The notes under the pieces were generated by a model. The model was not told the origin of the DNA and made no database searches. It saw only the letters and a program-made list of their open reading frames with translations. Shown here piece after piece: positions 14,911-42,522 of a stretch of 42,522 nucleotides of DNA. The position numbers and the translations under genes are program-made. The first letter of the stretch is position 1. Every line of letters begins with the position of its first letter. Origin of the DNA: Chloroflexota bacterium (GTDB lineage Bacteria > Chloroflexota > Anaerolineae > B4-G1 > SLSP01); the NCBI GenBank assembly GCA_019873725.1, contig JAIOAS010000009.1:1-42522 (forward strand), written 5' to 3'.

Positions 14911-14934
14911 GCGTGAGCGATGAAGCGAACAGCA

Positions 14935-14988
14935 CCCACCGTCAGGTGGACACCCACCGTCAGGTGGGCGCACCCACCGGATGGTGGG
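14935..14988 (+). promoter_or_regulatory. Three consecutive hairpins in the rpoB leader
   Basis: CCCACC followed by a 4-nt loop and GGTGG occurs three times: 14935-14950 (loop GTCA, 5 bp), 14953-14968 (loop GTCA, 6 bp) and 14973-14988 (loop GGAT, 6 bp). Neighbouring arms can also pair with each other, for example GGTGGG of hairpin 2 with CCCACC of hairpin 3 across CGCA, so two exclusive folds exist. There is no U-tract. The last hairpin ends 16 nt before the AGGAGGGG ribosome-binding site of rpoB, so translational or stability control is possible. Confidence 0.65.
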
Positions 14989-15022
14989 CGTCACATTGGC
15001 ACCCAGGAGGGGAAGAAATAGC

Positions 15023-18000
15023 ATGTCAGTAGCCAACCTTGGGGTAAAGTCTTATGCGCGAATTTCCAGCGCCTTGCCGTTACCGGGTCTGGTCGAGGTA
15101 CAGTTAGAGTCGTATCAATGGCTGCTCACTGAAGGGCTGTTGCAGCTCTTCGATGAAATCTCACCGATTGAGAGCTTTAATGGTTTGCTGAGTCTGTATC
15201 TGCCGGGCAGTAAAGCCAAAGAGGCCGGCTTCGACCTCGGCTATCGTTTTGGCGAACCCAAGCACAGCCAGGAAGAATGTTTGGACCGCGATCTCACCTA
15301 CGCGGTGCCGTTGTACGTGGATGTGGCCCTGGTCAACCGTGAGACCAGCGAAATCGTCCAGCAGGAGATTTTCCTGGGCGATCTCCCGCAAATGACCGAG
15401 AGCGCCACGTTCATTATCAACGGCACAGAGCGCGTGGTCGTGAGCCAGTTGATCCGTTCGCCCGGCGTCTATTTTGGCGTGGAAGATGACGGCGGCCACC
15501 GGCTGGCGACGGCTAAGTTGATTCCCGATCGCGGCGTGTGGATGGAGTTCGAGACGCGCAAATCGGGCTACCTGACGCTGCGCTTCAACCGTAAGCGCAC
15601 GATTCCCGTTACCATCTTCCTGCGGGCTCTGGCCGCCGTAGATGATGAACTGCACGGCACGCTCCTCACCGTCGGCGATGACGCCGAGTTGCTGGAACTG
15701 TTCGCCGAGGCCGATAATGACCCGGATCATCCCTGGATCGCCAATACGATTCGCCAGGAACCGGTGTGGGAGCCTCGGATGGACCGCACCGTGGCCCAGG
15801 AAGCCTTGATCGAATTCTACCGCCGTATGCGCCCTGGCGATCCGCCAACGTTGGAGAACGCCCAGGAGTACATGGTTTCGCAGATTTTCGACCCGCAGCG
15901 TTACAACTTGCAGCGGGTAGGGCGCTACAAGCTCAACCAGCGCATGCAAATCAATGTGCCGTCGTCCATTTTGACGATCACCAAAGAAGATATCGTCGCC
16001 CTGGTGCGGCGTATGATCCACATCAACAACGGCGTCGCCGGTCCTGACGACATGGACCACCTCGGCAACCGCCGGGTGAAGACCGTGGGTGAACTGGTGC
16101 AGGCGAAGATTCGCGTTGGCCTGGTACGCATGGAGCGGGTCGTCAAAGAGCGCATGAGCATCCGTGAGGAATCACCGACGCCCGTCAATCTTGTCAACAT
16201 CCGCCCGGTGGTGGCTTCGATTCGGGAGTTCTTCGGCTCCAGTCAACTCTCCCAGTTTATGGAGCAGACAAATCCGTTGTCCAGCCTTACCCACAAGCGC
16301 ACACTCTCGGCGCTTGGCCCTGGCGGTCTGCGCCGTGAGCGCGCCGGCTTCGATGTGCGCGATGTGCACAACAGCCACTATGGCCGCATCTGCCCCATCG
16401 AAACCCCGGAAGGCCCCAACATCGGCCTGATCGGGCGCTTGTCCACGTATGGGCGGGTCAATGAATTGGGCTTTATCGAGACGCCTTATCGCCGTGTCGT
16501 GCGCGCGCTGCACCACAAAACCGATCAATTGGTCGGCGAGATTCTGCGTGAAGATGTGGTCGATCCGGCGACCGGCGCGGTGGTGGCGCCGGCCAACACC
16601 GAGATTACCCCGGCGTTGGCGCAGCACATCGCGGCTTTGGACTTGACCGAACCTGTCAAAATCGTCCCGCGTGTCACCAACGATGTCGTCTATCTCTCCG
16701 CCGACCGCGAAGAGCCTTACGTGATTGCCCAGGCCAATGCGCCGTTGGACAGCAACGGTCGTTTCAAAGGAAAGCAAGTCTCGGTGCGCAAGGGCGACCA
16801 ATTCAGCTTCTCGCCGGTTGACCGCATCGATTTTATGGATGTCGCTCCGGTGCAAATTGTCGGCGTCTCGGCTGCGTTGATTCCTTTCCTGGAACACGAC
16901 GACGCGAACCGCGCGTTGATGGGATCGAACATGCAGCGGCAGGCCGTACCGCTGATCCAGCCCGAAGCGCCTTACGTCGAAACCGGCATTGAGCAGGCCG
17001 CGGCACTGAACTCCGGCCTGGTGATCCTCTCCAAAGGCCCCGGCGTGGTGTTGAGCGTCACCGGCGACCGCATCGTCGTGGGGCAGGATGACGGTCAGGT
17101 GGTGACGTATAACCTGAAGAAATACGCGCGTTCCAACCAGAGCACGTGCATCGACCAGCGCCCGAACGTGATTAAAGGACAGCGAGTGGAAAAGGACACC
17201 ATCCTGGCGGATAGCTCTTCTACCGAGGGGGGACGCCTGGCGCTCGGTCAGAACGTGTTGGTCGCCTTTATGTCCTGGGAGGGCGGTAACTACGAAGACG
17301 CCATCCTGCTCAGCGAACAGTTGGTGCGGGATGACCGCTTCACTTCCATTCACATCGAGAAACACGAAATCGCCGCGCGCGATACCAAACTTGGGCCCGA
17401 AGAAATCACCCGCGAAATCCCCAACGTTTCTGACGACGCGTTGCGTGACCTCGATGAAGAAGGCATCGTGCGCATCGGCGCGGAAGTTGGGCCGTTGGAC
17501 ATTCTGGTTGGGAAAATCACCCCTAAGGGTGAGAAAGAACTGACGCCCGAAGAGAAACTTCTGCGCGCCATCTTCGGCGAAAAACTGCGCGATGTGAAGG
17601 ACACCAGCCTGCGCATGCCGCACGGCGCGCATGGCAAGGTGGTCGAGGTCAAGGTCTTTGACCGTGAGGAATACCGCGATTTGCCGGCGGGGGTTGAGCG
17701 TGTTGTGCGCGTCAGCGTGGCGCAGCGCCGCAAGATCACCGAGGGCGACAAGATGGCCGGACGCCATGGCAACAAGGGCGTCATTTCGCAGATCGTCCCC
17801 CTGGAGGATATGCCGTACCTGGCCGATGGCACCCCCGTTGATGTGATTCTCAACCCGCTCGGTGTGCCGGGCCGTATGAACATTGGGCAAGTGCTGGAGA
17901 CGCATCTGGGGTGGGCTTCTGGACGCCTCGGATTCCGCTCGATCAGTCCTGTCTTTGATGGCGCAGATGAGGAAGAGATCGCCGCCGAGTTAGCGCGCGC

Positions 18001-18922
18001 GTGGCTCATCGATTATGCATGGGACATTGTGACAGAGCGCGCCTGGGCCTGGCTGAAAGCGCAGGAATATCCCCTGGAGATGCTGCGGGATGATGACGAA
18101 GCGCGCCTGCTCTATATCGCCGCCTGGTTGACGCCCAAGGGGTACAAAGTCGATGCGTTGCGCGATGATCGGAACTATGCGCGTCGCTCCGTGTTACGGG
18201 AATGGCTCAAGGAAAAGGGGTATCGTCCTGAAGATCTGCTCTTCTTTGAAGACGATCCCCGGCCTATCAGTGAAAGTGCAGAGGTCAATCGCCGGGCGCA
18301 GGCGGTATGTCTGCGTCTCTGGCTGGAAGCGCGTGGGCAGGATGTCAGCAACCTGAGTGACGAAGAGGCCATTCTCAAGGCGACGGAATACAGCTTCGCC
18401 CATAACGACCCGCTGCCCACGTTGGGGAAGATGGTGCTTTACGATGGCAAGACCGGATTGCCCTTCGACCAACCGATCACTGTGGGTATCATCTACATCA
18501 TGAAGCTCGCGCACCTGGTCGAAGACAAAGTGCATACCCGCTCTACCGGTCCCTACTCGCTGGTCACCCAACAGCCGCTGGGAGGCAAGGCGCAATTCGG
18601 CGGGCAACGCTTCGGTGAAATGGAAGTGTGGGCACTGGAGGCCTACGGCGCGGCGTACACGCTGCAAGAGATGCTCACCATCAAATCGGATGACGTGCAG
18701 GGGCGGGTCAAAGCCTACGAGTCCATCGTCAAGGGCCTGCCGATTGAAGAGCCAGGCATCCCGGCTTCGTTCAAAGTGCTGGTGAAGGAACTGCAAAGCC
18801 TGGCGTTGGCGGTCGAAGCCGTCACGGATTCGGGCGAAGTCCTGCGCTTTGGACGTGATGACCGGCGCATGCAGTTGCCCAAACTAGGCATGGGCTTGTT
18901 GGGGTTGGCGCCCAGGGAATAA
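15023..18922 (+). CDS. rpoB: DNA-directed RNA polymerase subunit beta
   Basis: This is a full-length beta subunit of 1299 residues. The ATG at 15023 follows AGGAGGGG (15005-15012); the in-frame ATG at 14981 lies in a leader hairpin and is rejected. Family landmarks are present: the [11 protein letters not shown] rifampicin region, the [11 protein letters not shown] segment, [12 protein letters not shown] near the active site, and the [19 protein letters not shown]-terminal clamp region. Two oddities stand out. In the rifampicin pocket Glu414 and Thr427 occupy the positions of E. coli Asp516 and Arg529. Between FDGADEEEI and the LYDGKTG segment there is an extra domain of roughly 110-120 residues with a repeated WL-x-x-K-G-Y pattern starting at W1010, W1035, W1061 and W1100. 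The usual downstream partner rpoC is missing here; rpsL follows after 254 bp. Confidence 0.98.
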
Positions 18923-40965: not shown

Positions 40966-41292
40966 TTACCCCAGATACGGTTGCAATTCCTGGATAAGGG
41001 CAGCCTTGGCGCGATTGCCGACCAGCCGCGCCACCTCTTGACCGTTCTTGAAGATGATCATCGTGGGAATGTTCATCACCCCATACTGTGTCGCCAGTGC
41101 GGACTCTTCTTGCACGTTAACCTTGACGACTTTGAGTTGCCCTTCCAGATCAACGGCGACTTCTTCCAGCGTAGGGCCCAATTTCCGGCAGGGGGGGCAC
41201 CACTCCGCCCAAAAATCCACCAGCACCGGCAGGGTGGCCTGTTTGACTTCGGCGTCGAAGCTTTGCGCGCCTACATGCGTTACATTTCCCAT
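40966..41292 (-). CDS. trxA: Thioredoxin with a WCPPC active site
   Basis: This 108-residue thioredoxin keeps the fold signatures: VDFWAEWCPPCRKLGP with Cys32 and Cys35, and the cis-Pro loop NIPTMIIF. The dipeptide between the cysteines is Pro-Pro rather than the usual Gly-Pro, a change known to shift redox potential in this fold. There is no signal peptide, so it is cytoplasmic and likely a general disulfide reductase. GGAGG lies upstream of the ATG on the minus strand. Confidence 0.94.
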   Translation of the reverse strand: MGNVTHVGAQSFDAEVKQATLPVLVDFWAEWCPPCRKLGPTLEEVAVDLEGQLKVVKVNVQEESALATQYGVMNIPTMIIFKNGQEVARLVGNRAKAALIQELQPYLG

Positions 41293-41447
41293 TCCTTTTA
41301 CCTCCGTTTGGTATACTGTGTCCGTGTTGTATGCTAGAATCTTGGTGGAGCGGTATGTGATCCCGCTACGTTGCGGGCATTTGCCTTGAACTGACTGTGA
41401 TTATCGCATGGCTGAACGCATTGTCAACTGGTGATTACCTCCATGTC

Positions 41448-41951
41448 AGGGTCTTATCATGCTTGCTCCCTTTTTGCTCCGAGGGGAACGTCAGTTCCCC
41501 GTTTTAAGCGCATAAGACGCGGATCTGACGATCCGCTCGAAGCAAAAATAGGGTCTTATCATGCTTGCTCCGAGGGGAACGCCAGTTCCCCGTTTTAAGC
41601 GCATAAGACGCGGATCTGGCGATCCGCTCGAAGCAAAAATAGGGTCTTATCATGCTTGCTCTGAGGGGAACGCCAGTTCCCCGTTTTAAGCGCATAAGAC
41701 GCGGATCTGGCGATCCGCTCGAAGCAAAAATAGGGTCTTATCATGCTTGCTCCGAGGGGAACGCCAGTTCCCCGTCTTACGCTCAGACGCGGATCTGACG
41801 ATCCGCTCGAAGCAAAAATAGGGTCTTATCATGCTTGCTCCGAGGGGAACGTCAGTTCCCCGTTTTAGGCTCATAAGACGCGGATCTGGCGCTCCGCTCG
41901 AAGCAAAAATAGGGGCTTATCATGCTTGCTCCGAGGGGAACGCCAGTTCCC
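41448..41951. repeat. Tandem array of ~91-bp units with paired palindromes
   Basis: Units begin at 41448, 41550, 41641, 41732, 41820 and 41911; spacings are 102, 91, 91, 88 and 91 bp. Five are complete and the sixth stops in its first hairpin. The first has an 11-bp insertion. Each unit has hairpin A (GGGGAAC, 4-nt loop, GTTCCCC) followed by GTTTT in most units, then hairpin B (GCGGATC, 4-nt loop, GATCCGC). GTCTTAT and ATAAGAC can pair around hairpin A. The A and B loops are GCCA and TGGC in units 2-3 and GTCA and TGAC in unit 1, in each case complementary. The unit length is not a multiple of three. No cas genes, transposase or reading frame goes with it. It fills most of the trxA-LysM gap. 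Confidence 0.92.
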
Positions 41952-41997: not shown

Positions 41998-42026
41998 TTG
42001 CCAATTATTTTTTCTTATGCTATAAT
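41998..42026 (+). promoter_or_regulatory. Promoter of the 42068 LysM gene
   Basis: TTGCCA (41998-42003), a 17-bp spacer ending TATGC, and TATAAT (42021-42026) make a near-consensus promoter with an extended -10 (TGC). Transcription would start near 42033, giving a ~35-nt leader with an AAGCC/GGCTT hairpin. The element lies about 45 bp downstream of the repeat array. Confidence 0.82.
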
Positions 42027-42067: not shown

Positions 42068-42522
42068 ATGGAAAATACACAAGAGAGTAGTTTACAAGCA
42101 ATAGATAGTTCACGCCCGCAGAGGAGTCTCTCCGGTCTTGTCGGGCGAATCATAGGTAGAACAACGGCGATCGTTTGGCGGTGGGGCAATGACCGCCAGG
42201 CTGTCGCTGCTTTTGTTGGCCGTTACAGCGCCCACATGTCCATTCTGATGTTGGCGCTGCTGATTGGATTGGCCGGCCGTCTTGCGCTGGCACCGATCAG
42301 TGTGGCGGTGACCCCTGAGGTTGGCATGATGTCCTTGCCGGTTGCGGCCGAACCCCAGGCTACCCCAACAGCTTTTGTGACCGAGACCCTTTCTGGCTGG
42401 CAGAACACCAATCAAGTGTCACGGGCGGTTTTCAGAATGGCTCAACCGCGCACCGATATCCCCGAACGGGTGCGTCTGGAAGTGATTACCTACACCGTCC
42501 AATCCGGTGATAACATCTTCTT
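42068..42522 (+). CDS. Membrane-anchored LysM protein, N-terminal part
   Basis: The frame is open to the window end, giving 151 residues. A ~55-residue basic cytoplasmic N-terminus is followed by one transmembrane helix (about 58-76, LMLALLIGLAGRLAL region), then an outer segment with QATPTAF, and the beginning of a LysM domain at ITYTVQSGDNIFF. The protein is therefore a type II membrane protein with its C-terminal part outside; such Chloroflexota proteins often end in an M23 peptidase domain, but that part is not in the window. The ribosome-binding site is weak (AAGG). Confidence 0.8.
   Translation, partial: MENTQESSLQAIDSSRPQRSLSGLVGRIIGRTTAIVWRWGNDRQAVAAFVGRYSAHMSILMLALLIGLAGRLALAPISVAVTPEVGMMSLPVAAEPQATPTAFVTETLSGWQNTNQVSRAVFRMAQPRTDIPERVRLEVITYTVQSGDNIF

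Follow-up and report, generated by a model that had tools for sequence, protein, structure and literature searches.

In the REPIN/RAYT system (Bertels and Rainey 2011, PMC3116915), REPs occur as inverted doublets that can fold either into one long hairpin or, alternatively, into a 'clover' made up of two local ones, and they are found in ordered tandem clusters that include their flanks and in clusters adjoining the RAYT gene. The repeats described here share each of these traits; however, they differ from the published system in that many doublets lie inside DDE-type MITEs with terminal inverted repeats (TIRs) and target duplications, in the foot of the hairpin, which is YCGA rather than GTAG, and in the host, which belongs to the Chloroflexota. 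Atypical REP feet have been published for subclass 2.6 (RAYT group 5) and class 3 of the TnpA-REP proteins (PMC6006769). Furthermore, GTAG- and CGTC-tagged REPs have been described along with TIRtrons (Di Nocera 2013, PMC3733652), a survey in which GTAG repeats were already listed for Chloroflexi and some REP units were joined to unrelated stem-loops. Those REPs resemble ours in forming dimers and clusters, but the foot here carries neither tag, and ours are found preferentially in divergent gaps, in contrast to the published ones, which favor unidirectional and convergent gaps. BrickBuilt of Porphyromonas gingivalis (PMC4596501) is, like the element described below, an intergenic MITE with an internal tandem array, although its repeat is a 23-bp minisatellite and not a REP doublet.

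The window, by which we mean the whole stretch of DNA analysed, comprises 42,522 nt of a Chloroflexota bacterium (assembly GCA_019873725.1, contig JAIOAS010000009.1, positions 1 to 42,522, forward strand). The draft assembly consists of 415 contigs, and its gene calls, promoters and families are predicted. Tandem Repeats Finder, applied to the window, reports a period of 91 with 5.3 copies and 94% matches at 41474-41951. Within the array, hairpin A (GGGGAAC-GYCA-GTTCCCC) occurs six times, the sixth with one mismatch, against a shuffle expectation of 0.11 matches, and every unit carries a pair of 7-bp hairpins, one with the loop GYCA and the other with TGRC. The original prediction, which described ~91-bp units with two 7-bp hairpins each and complementary loops, is borne out by the repeat finder and the pattern scan, and the loop states that it gave for units 1-5, including the mismatch in unit 4 and the wobble in unit 5, are correct (Table 1). 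The unit as a whole is one imperfect inverted repeat, and its best RNA fold is a single long imperfect hairpin, not two (-42.7 kcal/mol, z -5.2), with the loop hexamers forming the central helix of this favored fold. The plasmid collection that we searched contained no match.

Table 1. Features of the tandem array and its surroundings, in window coordinates.
Feature	Position	Strand	Details
Thioredoxin gene, left flank	40966..41292	-	PF00085, 106 bits
Predicted thioredoxin promoter	41400..41427	-	TTGACA-16-GATAAT with TG extension; three congeners conserve the region
Left terminal inverted repeat of MITE	41447..41463	+	CAGGGTCTTATCATGCT, one mismatch to CAGGGNNTTATCATTCT
Unit 1	41448..41549	+	About 102 bp, 11 extra nt; loops GTCA/TGAC
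Unit 2	41550..41640	+	91 bp; loops GCCA/TGGC
Unit 3	41641..41731	+	91 bp; loops GCCA/TGGC
Unit 4	41732..41819	+	88 bp; loops GCCA/TGAC (one mismatch)
Unit 5	41820..41910	+	91 bp; loops GTCA/TGGC (wobble)
Unit 6	41911..41951	+	Stops inside 3' arm of hairpin A; without second half and right TIR
REP palindrome A, unit 2 example	41574..41591	+	GGGGAAC-GCCA-GTTCCCC
REP palindrome A, remaining copies (starts)	41483, 41665, 41756, 41844, 41935	+	
REP palindrome B, unit 2 example	41610..41627	-	Inverted motif, GCGGATC-GCCA-GATCCGC on minus strand
REP palindrome B, remaining copies (starts)	41519, 41701, 41789, 41880	-	
Predicted promoter of rightward gene	41998..42026	+	TTGCCA-17-TATAAT with TG extension; three congeners conserve the region
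Rightward flanking gene, start near 42068, cut by window end	42068..42522	+	LysM-like TYTVQSGDNIF motif by eye

Taken together, our findings identify these repeats as a very small mobile DNA element, of which this genome contains dozens of copies, and the array itself is very probably the internally amplified remnant of a non-autonomous MITE of the ISAs1 type with a REPIN at its center.

Both hairpins of the unit represent the palindrome GCTYCGA[SGGAWC-GYCA-GWTCCSC], once in each orientation, and because the doublet holds the motif together with its inverse, its loops are complementary automatically. The REP pattern has 463 matches at up to three mismatches in the 5.27-Mb genome, compared with 0 for the reversed-pattern control. 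An exhaustive Hamming scan provided 275 copies from this genome for counting stem and loop states. All seven stem pairs are intact in 210 of the 275, and stem positions 2 and 6 change jointly on both sides (C-G/T-A in 122, G-C/A-T in 113 and G-C/T-A in 16 copies). Since the stem pairs are kept and the positions at which A and B differ change on both sides of the stem, it is the local palindrome that is the conserved object. The foot of the hairpin reads TCGA in 107 and CCGA in 77 of the 275 copies; with YCGA in place of GTAG (or GTGG), this is therefore not a GTAG-type REP. By the gene calls of a simple codon model, which also underlie the gap-orientation test given below, just 5 of 232 REPs fall inside called genes, though 83% of that sequence is coding.

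We counted 102 inverted doublets, and 57 inverted REP doublets have a spacing of 16. Other REP arrays, on contigs C3 and C152 of this genome (G000; L095 and L252), have no paired MITE ends at their borders and differ in period (52 bp, with every REP in a single orientation, and about 74 bp, in pairs). Elsewhere in the window, three tandem 20-bp mini-hairpins of the type CCCACC-GTCA-GGTGG (14932-14990), with the loop GTCA as in the REPs, lie in the leader just upstream of rpoB (ORF 14981-18922, Pfam Rpb2 domains), whose true start may lie at 15023, as a ribosome-binding-like AGGAGG suggests.

Alignment of the solitary copies revealed common flanking sequence on both sides of the doublet, in the arrangement CAGGGTCTTATCATTCTT-doublet-AAAAATAGGGAACTGTGACGAGAATGATAAAGCCCTG, and ends formed by 17-bp TIRs, CAGGG(TC/CT)TTATCATTCT. 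A scan for the TIR gave 118 matches against 0 in the control. The elements with paired TIRs are mostly about 123 bp in length (118-132 bp) and lack coding capacity, and target duplications of 7-10 bp accompany 18 of the 32 sibling elements, compared with 0.15% when flanks are shuffled among elements. CAGGG ends together with duplications of 8-10 bp are the mark of the ISAs1 family. The insertion sequences of that family and the MITEs derived from them thus have the CAGGG ends and the duplication of about 8-10 bp in common with our element, which differs from the insertion sequences in being non-coding; the member ISArsp11, for example, has the CAGGG ends CAGGGCTGATGC and a 10-bp duplication (PMC6305408). 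The genome studied here also encodes an ISAs1-family transposase, frameshifted, in a copy with ends CAGGGCTTATCAACGCTCT (L263, G000:C73:17800-20288); these resemble the MITE ends without being identical to them, and the right one lies exactly at the contig end. We looked for an intact autonomous element whose TIRs are exactly those of the MITE and found none; the unpaired TIRs marked only further MITE copies or remnants. REPs were located inside MITEs in 105 of 164 cases at the examined loci and in 0 of 83 at extra loci from the listing of the REP pattern, shares that do not amount to an unbiased estimate because loci had in part been selected for their resemblance to the window unit.

At the locus in the window, one copy of this MITE inserted between the divergent promoters of the thioredoxin gene and its neighbor and then grew to 5.3 units. 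At the orthologous sites of the congeners G001, G002 and G003 the flanks are conserved and the array is absent. The array is bounded on its left edge by the terminal inverted repeat CAGGGTCTTATCATGCT, beginning at 41447, and is without the right TIR; no target duplication is recognisable at this copy. It lies between two divergent predicted -35 boxes, upstream of both flanking genes and of their promoters, and is therefore outside both expected transcripts. The rightward of these genes gave no Pfam match. To the right of the doublet, solitary elements run from AAAAATAGGG into AACTG and on to the right TIR, and the array junctions run from AAAAATAGGG into TCTTATC, which suggests that the tandem units may have arisen between two AGGG tracts. 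Such units would result if the AGGG of the right segment (AAAAATAGGG) recombined with that of the left TIR (CAGGGTCTT), or if replication slipped between them, and the right end of the window copy would have been lost later. Internal tandem amplification of the same MITE is also seen at L033, L035, L043, L046, L052, L056 and L063, with units of about 80-122 bp; given several loci with differing unit lengths, array formation has happened repeatedly.

Two Y1-type genes are present in the genome. When a RAYT-type transposase was sought elsewhere in the genome, as the original prediction had proposed, one was found on contig C87, flanked by REPs. It encodes a protein of 186 aa with HIH and YIHDNP motifs and matches the NCBIfam family REP_Tyr_transpos (NF047646) with 92.7 bits against a cut-off of 80. 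A REP triplet ends a few nucleotides from its stop codon and a run of many REPs lies on its 5' side, all of them outside TIR pairs. We infer from this adjacency that the RAYT may act on these REPs. Its ortholog in G002 (88% identical) is also REP-flanked, in agreement with the published REPtron/REPIN anatomy (PMC3116915), and other Anaerolineae RAYTs, with 49-60% identity, have their own flanking palindrome families. TnpA-REP subclass 2.6 (PMC6006769) is similar in its NH[LIV]H and YIH-NP motifs and in the non-GTAG palindromes around the gene, and its phylum, Bacteroidetes, is also the source of most of the nearest non-Chloroflexota relatives that we found for the C87 protein; the CCGA foot of palindrome A is similar to CnGA, the foot of class 3. 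Nevertheless, the tryptophan motif here is WE rather than WQ, and the Y motif is not that of class 3 (no Y----Q). A PDB sequence search with the RAYT returned no match. The second RAYT-like gene, on contig C304, has no REPs beside it and for this reason was not adopted as the cognate enzyme. In the relative G012 no close RAYT was found, the best reaching 34% identity, despite about 207 REPs. Another relative, G015, contains 26 matches to Y1_Tnp, many of them broken by stop codons, which suggests a burst of an IS200/IS605-type element in that genome.

The same REPs are also carried in a different vehicle. In G012, doublets are found within 142-bp near-perfect inverted-repeat elements with ends TAGTACAGCGCGGC and the doublet at the apex (e.g. 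L265:885-1026), and a scan for the TIR of this element gave 219 matches against 64 in the control. Related elements carrying these REPs occur in G002 and G038. In these three genomes the flanks follow the pattern C-TA...TA-G, with TA on both sides in 13 of 19 elements and, in 17 of 19, a preceding C and a following G; this is an IS630-like TA target and points to an IS630-type MITE. Indeed, G002 has the REP doublet in both types of vehicle (L303-L305 and L306). The genome G037, from another genus, possesses 151-bp elements with CAGGG...TTATCATTCT ends, some with 7-9 bp duplications, that have a different interior and none of these REPs. Because two MITE types carry the REPs and G037 has the CAGGG element without them, vehicle and passenger are separable. 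The REPINs appear to have entered the MITEs, and a RAYT acting on hairpins of single-stranded DNA was probably responsible.

It could be argued that the doublet is a plain REPIN or BIME, mobilised only by RAYT as in Pseudomonas, and that the flanking inverted repeats are incidental. The REP doublets, the REP-flanked RAYT and the ordered tandem clusters do match published REPINs, and the 83 REPs at the extra pattern-chosen loci lie outside TIR pairs. However, the TIR-bounded elements are near-constant in length and have target duplications of 7-10 bp, and in G037 the same TIR element is present but lacks these REPs. Target duplications are not known to result from single-strand Y1 transposition. 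For the TIR-bounded copies this reading is largely refuted, and as a full account of the array we consider it unlikely. The REP/BIME-like element suggested in the original prediction, in which a single core motif is read in both orientations, is upheld by the 463 REPs and the REP-flanked RAYT, but this account is incomplete, the doublet being embedded in a mini-transposon with TIRs and target duplications.

Alternatively, the palindromes may be original to the MITEs, and the REPs at the RAYT gene may be MITE fragments gathered there. In favor of this, most G012 REPs appear to lie in MITEs, as judged from the excess of TIR matches over the control, in a genome for which no close RAYT was found. 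Yet the same palindromes are shared by two types of MITE whose ends and target rules are unrelated; the REPs on contig C87 are outside TIR pairs and lie on both sides of the RAYT, as they do in G002; and the more distant Anaerolineae RAYTs have palindrome families of their own. An origin within the MITEs thus strikes us as quite improbable.

Returning to a REPIN housed within an ISAs1-type MITE, the following course of events can be proposed. The RAYT, an HUH tyrosine transposase, would recognise and spread the REP hairpins as single-stranded DNA and would have placed a REP doublet in the hairpin-forming interior of MITEs, after which an ISAs1-family DDE transposase would have moved the composite of MITE and doublet. 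It is tempting to speculate that REPINs in Chloroflexota are passenger cassettes that have repeatedly entered the hairpin interior of unrelated DDE-type MITEs (of the ISAs1 and IS630 types), so that they are spread by two chemistries, first single-strand transposition by the RAYT into the MITE and then DDE transposition of the composite, a generalisation that is plausible but that we hold tentatively, as falling slightly short of probable.

The co-varying, complementary loops had been thought to fit a kissing-loop RNA, that is, a structured RNA in which the loops pair in the transcript and their complementarity is under selection. The loops are complementary in most copies, and G012 has GTCA in both loops of 15 of 17 doublets where this genome mostly has GCCA in both. 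The G012 state is compatible with pairing but equally fits one protein reading both copies, under which such a change between genera is just as much expected. Within this genome the covariation could be examined in the 85 of 102 inverted doublets that have a GCCA or GTCA loop on both sides. Their loop bases (A/B) are C/C in 64, C/T in 17, T/C in 3 and T/T in 1, so that the double change was seen once against 0.85 expected under independence (Fisher p=1), and this sole compensated doublet is the window's own unit 1. The test rests on the absence of double changes, and not on counts of mismatches, because C/T doublets are G-U wobbles on the other strand; the spacing-16 doublets alone (46 C-G, 1 T-A, 1 T-G) have loops too invariant for it. 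The apparent co-variation therefore fails in the other copies, and the transposon-like target duplications that the original prediction had set against an RNA are present in 18 of 32 sibling elements. Furthermore, a search of the window for Rfam families gave no match, and the position of the array between two divergent predicted -35 boxes argues in the same direction. On the independence of the loop bases and the Rfam result we reject a kissing-loop RNA, and we regard this or any other structured RNA as highly improbable; the loops are complementary as a side effect of one motif facing its own inverse.

Finally, an array of transcription terminators or attenuators, as proposed from the terminator-like look of hairpin A with its GTTTT, is scarcely credible, for although GTTTTA follows hairpin A, scanning the array revealed no site resembling a terminator, both genes lie downstream of it, and the enrichment of REPs in divergent gaps (20 of 49 REP-bearing gaps compared with 11 of 106, p=2.5e-5, or p=0.026 when the reference gaps are those of 150 bp or more), with convergent gaps making up only 2 of the 49, is evidence against terminators.

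A REPIN nested in a MITE is a new variant, both kinds of element being already known, and it illustrates that complementary loops can arise without any RNA function. The nesting of one mobile element in another can moreover be put to the test in this case. On the prevailing view, a REPIN depends on a RAYT gene in its own genome. Carried on mini-transposons as well, it would gain a second, RAYT-independent route of spread, and such a route could account for genomes that, like G012, are rich in REPs but have no obvious cognate RAYT.
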